Shown piece by piece: positions 32,020-35,714 of a stretch of 64,000 nucleotides of DNA. The first letter of the stretch is position 1; each line of letters starts with the position of its first letter. Below the pieces are notes generated by a model, which saw nothing but the letters and a program-made list of their open reading frames with translations, was not told the DNA's origin and made no database searches. The translations under genes and the position numbers were made by a program. The stretch covers positions 1-64,000 of the forward strand of contig JACPMX010000011.1 of assembly GCA_016185755.1 (NCBI GenBank), written 5' to 3'. This stretch comes from Candidatus Woesearchaeota archaeon (lineage in GTDB: Archaea; Nanobdellota; Nanobdellia; Woesearchaeales; GW2011-AR4).

Positions 32020-32167
32020 TGGGGCGTATGGAATTTGAATCCATGATTGTGGAAGGGCACTAACGTGAACCTTTCACCACGGTCTTCAGCCGTCTAAGCC
32101 AGCTTTAAAAGCTGTGTGCTCTCCATAGCCGAAGACTAGCTTCCTTCTCAGGCTGAGCTAACGCCCC
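32020..32167 (-). tRNA. tRNA-Phe(GAA) with three introns: D-loop (approx. 25 nt), anticodon 5' stem (22 nt, approx. 32092-32113), variable loop (approx. 28 nt)
   Basis: GGGGCGT/ACGCCCC acceptor, D-stem GCTC/GAGC, CAC+GG/CCGTG anticodon stem around CTGAAGA, ATGGA-TTCAAAT-TCCAT T-arm; removal leaves a 73-nt cloverleaf. Confidence 0.83.
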
Positions 32168-32259
32168 ATGCAAAATTCAAGAACAAGATAATAATTTAAA
32201 AGGCTTTCGATTGCGCCAGCATATACGAAGTCATGAACGAAGTGAGTATACTTTCGAAT

Positions 32260-32670
32260 TCAAATCTCTTCGTCATCAGCGTCTTCAATGTCTTCTTCCT
32301 CGACATTAAGGCCCTCGCCGTCGCTTTCACTTTCTTTTGGGATGTTGCTGTATATCTTTGACGGCTCGCCTGAATCATCAGCCTTTCCGACAACCTCAAG
32401 CTTCCCCATCCTTCCGGTTGTGAGCTGCATCTCCCCCTGCCATTCATTAACATAGCCGTTTGTAATATGAATCTTGTCGCCAGCCTTCACCTTGTCAATG
32501 TCCTCGTTCCATAATGTAAGCTTGATGTCGCCTGTCTCGTCCTTCGCTATCGCGGTTGAAACCCTTCCAGCCTTGCCAAATTTCTGGAATTCTCTAGGGA
32601 CACCTATGTCAACAACATCTACAATGACGTCAACATTGCCCTGCTTCGGCTTAAGGTCTTTTATCTGCAT
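32260..32670 (-). CDS. OB-fold single-stranded nucleic-acid-binding protein with acidic tail
   Basis: RVSTAIAKDETGDIKLTLWNEDIDKVKAGDKIHITNGYVNEWQGEMQLTTG. Confidence 0.85.
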   Translation of the reverse strand: MQIKDLKPKQGNVDVIVDVVDIGVPREFQKFGKAGRVSTAIAKDETGDIKLTLWNEDIDKVKAGDKIHITNGYVNEWQGEMQLTTGRMGKLEVVGKADDSGEPSKIYSNIPKESESDGEGLNVEEEDIEDADDEEI

Positions 32671-32947: not shown

Positions 32948-34423
32948 ATGGAACGCAGCCTGGAAAAGCCAAAGGATAAGGATCTGAAGCAAGTAGACAA
33001 GACTGTTTGGGAGATTCCAACTTCTTATAAAAAAGGTATGCTGGTTCCTGCAAGGATTTACGCCACAAAAAAACTCTTGGATGAAATGGATGCAGGCGTA
33101 TTTAACCAGGTTACAAATGTTGCGTGCTTGCCAGGAATACAGAAATATGCATTCTGCATGCCGGATGGGCATTGGGGGTACGGCTTTCCAATTGGAGGAG
33201 TTGCTGCTTTTGATGCAGAAACAGGAGTAATTTCACCCGGTGGAATCGGCTTTGACATAAACTGCGGAATGAGATTGGTTACAACTAATCTCACTTTCAA
33301 GGAAGTGCAGCCCAAACTAAAAGAATTAGTTGATTCGCTGTTCAAAACAGTACCTTCAGGAGTTGGCTCGAGAGGATTTGTCAATGCAAGCAAATCACAG
33401 TTCAAGGAAATAATGTCTGACGGCTCAAAATGGTGCGTTGAAAATAATTATGGCTGGAAGGAAGATTTGGAAAGGACTGAAGGCCATGGAAAAATAGACT
33501 GGGCAGAGCCTGAAAAAGTGAGCCAAAAAGCTGTTGACAGGGGAATGAACCAACTGGGCACTTTGGGCTCGGGCAACCATTATCTTGAGATACAGATTGT
33601 AAGGGCTGAAAATATTTTTGACGAACAAATTGCAAAAAAGTTTGGCATTCATTCACCTGAGCAGATTGTTATAATGGTCCATTGCGGCTCAAGGGGATTC
33701 GGGCACCAGATTGGAACTGATTACCTGAGAGTTTTTGAAGGTGCGATGAAGAAATACGGCATTGAAGTTTATGACAGGGAACTGGCATGCGCGCCGTTCC
33801 AGAGCAATGAGGGCCAGGATTATTACAAGGCAATGGCATGCGCTGCAAACATGGCCTTTGCAAACCGTCAAGTGATTTTGCACAGGATAAGGGAAGGCTT
33901 CTCAAAAGTTTTCAGGACAGATGCTGAGAAACTTGACATGCACATGGTCTATGATGTTGCGCACAACATAGCAAAGCTGGAAGAGCATACTGTTGACGGA
34001 CACAGGAAAAAATTAATTGTCCATAGAAAAGGCTCGACAAGGGCATTTCCCCCACATCATCCGGAATTGGCAAATTTATACAAGGAAACAGGCCAGCCTG
34101 TGATCATAGGCGGCTCGATGGAAACCGGATCATTCTTGCTTGTGGGAACGCAGAAAGCAATGGATGACACATTTGGCAGCACTGCACATGGCTCGGGAAG
34201 GACAATGTCAAGGGCCGCCGCAAAGCACCAAGTCAGGGGAGAGCAGCTGCAAAAGGATATGGAAAAAAGAGGAATTTATGTCAAGGCAACTTCGATGCCC
34301 GGACTGGCAGAAGAGGCTGGGTTTGCTTACAAGAACATCAATGATGTTATTGAGGCTGTTTCACAAGCTGGGATATCTAAACCAGTGGTAGGACTAAAAC
34401 CCTGTGCCAATATCAAGGGCTGA
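32948..34423 (+). CDS. rtcB: RNA-splicing ligase RtcB
   Basis: YAFCMPDGHWGYGFPIGGVAAFD, GGIGFDINCGMRL, GTLGSGNHYLEIQ, VHCGSRGFGHQIG, STAHGSGRTMSR. Confidence 0.97.
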   Translation: MERSLEKPKDKDLKQVDKTVWEIPTSYKKGMLVPARIYATKKLLDEMDAGVFNQVTNVACLPGIQKYAFCMPDGHWGYGFPIGGVAAFDAETGVISPGGIGFDINCGMRLVTTNLTFKEVQPKLKELVDSLFKTVPSGVGSRGFVNASKSQFKEIMSDGSKWCVENNYGWKEDLERTEGHGKIDWAEPEKVSQKAVDRGMNQLGTLGSGNHYLEIQIVRAENIFDEQIAKKFGIHSPEQIVIMVHCGSRGFGHQIGTDYLRVFEGAMKKYGIEVYDRELACAPFQSNEGQDYYKAMACAANMAFANRQVILHRIREGFSKVFRTDAEKLDMHMVYDVAHNIAKLEEHTVDGHRKKLIVHRKGSTRAFPPHHPELANLYKETGQPVIIGGSMETGSFLLVGTQKAMDDTFGSTAHGSGRTMSRAAAKHQVRGEQLQKDMEKRGIYVKATSMPGLAEEAGFAYKNINDVIEAVSQAGISKPVVGLKPCANIKG

Positions 34424-35519
34424 TTGGACTTAAATCTGTTTTTGATTTAACTGCATCTTTAATTATAAATCTCAATTTTATAACTTCTTCTTCAATCTCG
34501 CACCAATGAACTATACCCTTATTATAAATCTTAAATATTAGGTCTCTCTTCATTATTTTTTCTGGATGTTTGATAGGTATATCTTTAAGTAATGATATTG
34601 CTTGACTCCTTTTTGTTTCTAGAATATAATAATCTTTATTATACTTGAATAATATACCATTATTAAAATATTTATGACCTTTACAATGGGATAAATGTAT
34701 TGAAGACTTGTAATCAAGATTGTTCAGTTTATCCTTAATACCTATCAACAAATTTAAATTCTGGCCAAAAAGTCTGATTCCATAAAAAATTCCACCATGC
34801 ATTCTTTTTAGCATAACGCTTCCATCAGAGTCTATAAAACCTGCTAAGAAGTAGAAGAAATTATTAGAATTTATCCAATCTGGTACTTTTCCATTCTTTG
34901 TGTCTAATAAGAAAGAAAAACTTTCTAAGTCTAAATGAGTCTGAAATCTAAACATGCCATTTAATTTGGTTTCTTTGTAGCTGCTTATTCCATATTTATT
35001 AAAAATATTGTATAATAATTTTACAAAAGTAAGATGAGTAGAATGAGTTATAAGCTTTAATGTATAGTTTGATTTTCTTACTGGAGTTAAATCACCCATA
35101 ACTAATCCATAAATATAAGCTTTTTCTTGGCTAGATAAATTAAATTTCTTCTTTTCTTTTATATAGCCTATGGCTAGTTGAGCTGATCTACTATCCATTA
35201 TACTTACTCCGTTTTCGACAAGAATCTTTCTTATAGTGCCTCTTGCAATTTTTGAATTCCTAGAAAGCTCTCTTATAGGGACTTTGTTGTTGTAATTTTC
35301 AAGCAGTTTTTGGATGTCAATATGCTTTCTTGTCCTTAAAATTACTCCTTCCACATCACTTCTTAACTTAACACCAATTTTTCTTAATCTTTTACCTATA
35401 CCATATGGACTGACTTTAAAGTTATATGCTCTATTCAAATATTCAGCAGTTTCCGTTAGCGAATTACCTCGCTTATAATATTCACAAGCAATTTTGACAA
35501 TCTGATTTGTTATTTGCAT
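34413..35519 (-). CDS. LAGLIDADG homing endonuclease-like protein with N-terminal HTH repeats
   Basis: EKAYIYGLVMGDLTPV and FLAGFIDSDGSV motifs; 3' end overlaps the rtcB stop. Confidence 0.83.
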   Translation of the reverse strand: MQITNQIVKIACEYYKRGNSLTETAEYLNRAYNFKVSPYGIGKRLRKIGVKLRSDVEGVILRTRKHIDIQKLLENYNNKVPIRELSRNSKIARGTIRKILVENGVSIMDSRSAQLAIGYIKEKKKFNLSSQEKAYIYGLVMGDLTPVRKSNYTLKLITHSTHLTFVKLLYNIFNKYGISSYKETKLNGMFRFQTHLDLESFSFLLDTKNGKVPDWINSNNFFYFLAGFIDSDGSVMLKRMHGGIFYGIRLFGQNLNLLIGIKDKLNNLDYKSSIHLSHCKGHKYFNNGILFKYNKDYYILETKRSQAISLLKDIPIKHPEKIMKRDLIFKIYNKGIVHWCEIEEEVIKLRFIIKDAVKSKTDLSPISP

Positions 35520-35714
35520 TTTAATCAACCTCCAAAGTTTTTTGTTTTCTCTAAAATTTTGGAATGAGGAAAAAGAGAATTTGAAGCGAAACTACTTAAT
35601 TGATTTTCGTGCTGTAAAGCAGAAAAGCATTATTTGGCAGTTTTGCGTGTTCTCTTTTTCAAGATTTAGTCAGAATTCAGCCTTTATATACTTTAGGCAG
35701 AGATGTCCAGTGGT
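35520..35714 (-). promoter_or_regulatory. Conserved promoter and structured 5' leader of LAGLIDADG element 2
   Basis: Reverse complement matches 2159-2348 in exact blocks. Confidence 0.72.

Follow-up and report, generated by a model that had tools for sequence, protein, structure and literature searches.

Pre-tRNAs with three introns have been described in Pyrobaculum (Thermoproteales), namely tRNA-Glu(UUC) of P. calidifontis and tRNA-Pro(UGG) of P. islandicum (PMC4390854), and three introns per tRNA is the published archaeal maximum. The literature agrees with the original prediction for the locus described here, which held that such archaeal genes are known mainly from Thermoproteales. According to a 2019 review only the (alpha beta)2 and epsilon2 forms of the splicing endonuclease EndA efficiently remove introns with a relaxed bulge-helix-bulge (BHB) motif, and alpha4 is listed as narrow (PMC6379350). 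The current model has intron diversity co-evolving with EndA loops or beta subunits.

The tRNA-Phe gene and its predicted introns

We analysed a stretch of 64,000 nucleotides from the genome of a woesearchaeote (DPANN), in the following called the window. Candidate BHB introns were enumerated and all combinations were tried for a cloverleaf, the EndA cut being placed between the second and third bases of each 3-nt bulge, as is established for BHB splicing. For the minus strand at 32167..32020 (148 nt) the search returned a single top solution with a score of 81. The tRNA part scored 73, which no gene analysed here exceeds. The search thus confirmed the predicted tRNA-Phe(GAA) gene with three putative BHB introns and an empty position 37/38. 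Its features, taken from the BHB search except for the TATA-like box, which was read from the sequence, are:

32193..32201, minus strand: TATA-like box TTTTAAATT, 26-34 nt upstream of G1 of tRNA-Phe
32149..32167, minus strand: exon 1 (5' strands of the acceptor and D-stem, D-loop up to G18)
32125..32148, minus strand: intron 1, 24 nt, position 18/19, hBHBh' (H AGCC/GGCU, h' GAAGG/UCUUC, h CUC/GAG)
32116..32124, minus strand: exon 2 (G19 to C27)
32094..32115, minus strand: intron 2, 22 nt, position 27/28, HBh' (H GAGC/GCUU, h' CAGCUU/AAGCUG)
32075..32093, minus strand: exon 3 (A28 to variable-loop position 46, with the anticodon loop)
32047..32074, minus strand: intron 3, 28 nt, position 46/47, HBh' (H GUGG/CCAC, h' AAGG/CCUU)
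32020..32046, minus strand: exon 4 (positions 47-48, T arm, 3' strand of the acceptor stem, A73)

Positions follow Sprinzl numbering. The gene starts with GGGGCGT and ends with ACGCCCCA, followed by seven T. Removal of the introns leaves the sequence GGGGCGTTAGCTCAGCCTGGGAGAGCACACGGCTGAAGACCGTGGTGTCATGGATTCAAATTCCATACGCCCCA, which folds into the standard cloverleaf that had been predicted. It is perfect, with 7+4+5+5 stem pairs (21), all Watson-Crick, and an anticodon loop CUGAAGA with the anticodon GAA. The mature tRNA has 74 nt, 17a and A73 included, instead of the predicted 73; CCA is not encoded. The intron at 18/19 is flanked by a strict BHB, those at 27/28 and 46/47 by relaxed ones that have no outer helix. 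The predicted intron regions (D-loop, 5' anticodon stem and variable loop) and the lengths of 22 and about 28 nt were borne out, but the first intron has 24 and not about 25 nt. The second splice had been placed after CAC. It was moved to 27/28 (C/ACAG...TTAG/ACGG, slashes marking the cuts), since no other register yields a full BHB.

The top score among 200 dinucleotide-shuffled windows was 67, compared to 81 for tRNA-Phe. When the introns themselves were shuffled at fixed boundaries, an equally good BHB arose in 0.012%, 0.03% and 0.09% of cases for introns 1, 2 and 3, respectively. A T-arm-anchored scan of the whole window found two tRNAs, tRNA-Phe and an initiator tRNA-Met. ARAGORN called no tRNA anywhere in the window, nor did the Rfam tRNA model detect the tRNA-Phe gene. 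As predicted, we did not find an intact second tRNA-Phe in the assembly (1.25 Mb, 16 contigs, 93.7% complete, so that a second copy could fall in a gap). BLAST of the mature tRNA-Phe against the whole genome gave significant matches at pieces of the 32167-32020 locus only. Rfam gave 29 tRNA matches in the genome, of which not one read as GAA.

Other tRNA genes of this genome carry introns as well. The initiator tRNA-Met(CAT) at 2043-2146 (plus strand) contains a BHB intron of 29 nt in its D-loop (2058-2086); here Rfam yielded just a 29.5-bit match beginning inside the gene. Three tRNAs on contigs C16 and C6 (L024, L025, L029), apparently Pro and Ser-like, have 59/60 T-loop introns, thus the spread of introns is not confined to tRNA-Phe. 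A generic BHB solver for all tRNAs was dependable for some genes and spurious for others, and we do not claim a genome-wide intron count.

Splicing enzymes encoded in the genome

RtcB is the ligase of archaeal tRNA splicing. Its gene is located about 780 nt from the tRNA-Phe gene:

32948..34423, plus strand: RtcB tRNA-splicing ligase (PF01139, 579.7 bits)

The end of a LAGLIDADG-like ORF of 371 aa on the opposite strand (34413-35528, minus) overlaps the 3' end of rtcB.

The original prediction called for a broad-specificity endonuclease and for identification of the EndA subunit type. The genome search found one EndA gene, near the end of contig C9 (L063), which is of the alpha type with about 197 aa (ORF 197-245 aa). 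Its N-terminal half recurs with 98% identity at the end of contig C12 (L064), which we read as an assembly overlap. The protein has N and C domains and the invariant triad Y133, H143 and K174, presumably spaced as in M. jannaschii EndA. The nearest solved relatives are the N. equitans alpha subunit (3iey_A) and M. jannaschii EndA. A beta subunit was sought with PF01974 and PF02778, with the alpha protein itself, with a woesearchaeal EndA profile and with an NCBI beta-subunit model, and none of the five detected one, a result bounded by the genome completeness of 93.7% and by possible divergence. The Crenarchaea-specific loop (CSL), a Lys-containing insertion between YG and LSLIEALYL, is absent from this EndA; the stretch NLLDDGR is short where A. 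pernix has PLDVEKPRGADFEG, which we take to be the CSL. At 197-245 aa the ORF is also not an epsilon2-type three-unit fusion of about 390 aa. Being a single gene of alpha size with N and C domains and the Y/H/K triad, it has the features of an alpha4-type gene, and under the published classification the enzyme looks like the narrow alpha4 kind.

Yet two of the three introns of tRNA-Phe are of the relaxed HBh' form and would require broad activity, for which the known solutions are missing. Thus the predicted need for a broad enzyme stands, but the enzyme is of no known broad type. Either the alpha-only EndA is broad by an unexplained route, or a partner is hidden. On the first possibility we are evenly divided: a woesearchaeal EndA of alpha subunits, devoid of beta, CSL and ASL, may excise relaxed-BHB introns from about 12 positions, with as many as five in one tRNA. 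We consider it rather unlikely that the introns are spliced as proposed by a heterotetramer whose beta subunit is too diverged or lies in the missing 6% of the genome. In favour of such an enzyme, the protein is closest to the alpha subunit of N. equitans, which works as (alpha beta)2. Against it, the alpha query that retrieves N. equitans beta at 3e-13 in PDB gave no further match in this genome at E values up to 10, and of 100 order members nearly all, the closed genome G044 among them, have a single PF01974 gene.

A CSL-like or other EndA feature marking the intron-rich lineages was looked for in the C-terminal domain and rejected, as intron-rich order members and most of the intron-poor ones showed no visible difference there. 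The EndAs of the window's own family carry a Lys/Glu-rich N-terminal extension (L146-L157) that is mostly short or missing elsewhere.

Intron turnover among relatives

The tRNA-Phe locus is syntenic across the family, and relatives' loci were found with the upstream neighbour as a bait:

32260..32670, minus strand: SSB/RPA-like OB-fold protein, syntenic upstream neighbour of tRNA-Phe

Many relatives have a TTTTAAAT stretch upstream of tRNA-Phe, similar to the TATA-like box TTTTAAATT. Introns were located by spliced alignment to the mature tRNA-Phe in 58 distinct genes. Fourteen genes had no intron, 13 had one, nine had two, 12 had three, seven had four and three had five. The genes with five introns are:

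G015 (L040/L068): 4/5, 18/19, 27/28, 46/47, 59/60
G010 (L045/L079): 4/5, 18/19, 27/28, 46/47, 59/60
G030 (L054): 3/4, 18/19, 25/26, 46/47, 59/60

About 12 positions are well supported, i.e. 3/4, 4/5, 14/15, 18/19, 20/21, 25/26, 27/28, 37/38, 44/45, 46/47, 53/54 and 59/60; the labels 5/6, 35/36, 36/37 and 38/39 may be register shifts. In some introns, chiefly at 4/5, 14/15, 37/38 and 59/60, one of the four H pairs is missing or h' is short, so that their support comes from the match of the exons no less than from the motif. The 18/19 intron was present in 11 of the 58 genes.

Exons of genus members share 89-97% identity with those of the window gene, and the intron set varies between species. 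Among all relatives exon identity is 80-97% with differing introns, and orthologues with other introns or none yield a near-identical mature tRNA-Phe. From these alignments, intron positions of a single orthologous, syntenic tRNA are evidently gained and lost quickly within the family.

The helices of the motifs co-vary. In h' of the 27/28 intron all 13 genes retain the first four pairs, each of which occurs as two to four pair types. In H of the 46/47 intron one pair occurs as TA and as AT in six genes each and the next as GC and as TA in five each, e.g. GTGG/CCAC changing to TAGG/CCTA; the first h' pair occurs as AT and as TA in six genes each. The 18/19 helix is near-invariant in the family (GAAG/CUUC), and L209 has GUUUG/CAAAC instead. 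This is the pattern expected of splice motifs under selection.

Introns of the 37/38 region in L036, L044, L047 and L048 contain a kink-turn-like, box C/D-like element, e.g. TGAGCC..GGCGATGA, which might serve as an L7Ae site or as a guide RNA. The idea that the 18/19 intron is a mobile element was dropped, because GAAGG..CTTCG..GGA matches only tRNA-Phe genes and four protein-coding-like sites of the family.

Genes with four and five introns lift the published ceiling of three. Searches of the open-access literature turned up no report of tRNA introns in Woesearchaeota/DPANN or of four introns in an archaeal tRNA, and five introns in one archaeal tRNA appear to be new. Standard tools overlook intron-rich tRNA genes of this kind. 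Across the genomes G000-G059 the Rfam tRNA model recovers 6-21 tRNAs per genome for the genus and 5-21 for other members of the family; among further order members it recovers 9-13 in some (G043, G044, G045 and G047, with 13 in the closed G044) and 37-43 in some others. Genome incompleteness accounts for part of the low counts. However, the model sees only 16 tRNAs in the 99%-complete G008, so that many tRNA genes of the lineage are probably hidden by introns. Probably its tRNA inventories are badly undercounted.

Precursor folding and comparison with known systems

We are highly confident that 32167-32020 is a working tRNA-Phe gene with introns cut by EndA and exons joined by RtcB. We infer transcription, cleavage, ligation and splicing order as follows. 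The transcript would carry three short introns, each folding with adjoining exon bases into a BHB. EndA would cleave both bulges of every BHB, and the RtcB encoded nearby would ligate the four exons to a normal tRNA-Phe. The introns would be part of a lineage-wide invasion of tRNA genes with rapid gain and loss and up to five introns per gene.

In folding predictions the BHBs of introns 2 and 3 formed readily with pair probabilities of 0.75-0.99. In the minimum-energy fold intron 1 paired with the anticodon arm and its BHB was not favoured, a preference that sets in once the arm has been made. Imposing all three BHBs costs 13.7 kcal/mol, though the same model also fails to fold the cloverleaf of the mature tRNA-Phe. 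In a transcript prefix stopping before the anticodon arm the central helix of intron 1 formed, but not the exact h' register. The difference between folding before and after the anticodon arm makes an early, co-transcriptional removal of intron 1 plausible.

Intron 1 (GTCTTCGGCT, 32136-32127) can form about 10 bp with the anticodon arm (32092-32081). It is very unlikely, however, that it guards the anticodon by pairing of CUUC with G34-G37 until splicing and so replaces a 37/38 intron. The 10-bp pairing in the minimum-energy fold fits such a role, and in the first gene set CUUC was kept in nine of nine 18/19 introns and none of the nine genes also had a 37/38 intron. The idea thus fits the genus, but order-wide it is contradicted by L209, with an 18/19 intron lacking CUUC, and by L191, which has 18/19 and 37/38 introns together and breaks their mutual exclusion. 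We give hardly any credence to a decayed tRNA-Phe pseudogene with insertions whose function is taken over by another tRNA-Phe: standard tRNA finders miss the gene and the genome is 6% incomplete, but the 21 stem pairs are all preserved, every insertion is bounded by a BHB, the intron helices co-vary in relatives, synteny of the locus is maintained throughout the family and the genome yielded no other tRNA-Phe.

For a working gene spliced by EndA and RtcB one of the closest parallels is Pyrobaculum, which also has three short BHB introns at non-canonical positions of one tRNA. In contrast, the gene described here comes from another phylum, Woesearchaeota, has relatives with four and five introns and resides in a genome with neither a beta subunit nor a CSL detected. 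The multi-intron tRNAs of the red alga Cyanidioschyzon merolae likewise have introns in the D, anticodon and T arms, but belong to a eukaryote with a Sen2/34/54-type enzyme (PMC9602550). Nanoarchaeum equitans has the nearest solved relative of our alpha subunit and an enzyme that handles relaxed BHBs, yet this EndA is (alpha beta)2 and split tRNAs occur there, whereas here no beta was found and the introns lie in cis. ARMAN-2 (Micrarchaeota) is a DPANN archaeon whose introns demand broad specificity, too, but its epsilon2 EndA is a three-unit fusion of 390 aa compared to the one alpha unit of 197 aa here.

The number of introns per tRNA in this lineage is at least as extreme as in Thermoproteales, yet the enzyme looks minimal; thus the co-evolution model is directly testable with one recombinant protein. 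If true, a broad alpha-only EndA would break the accepted link of enzyme architecture to intron diversity. Taken together, the tRNA-Phe of the window is itself of a kind already known, and what is new are the four and five introns of its relatives and the apparently alpha-only enzyme.
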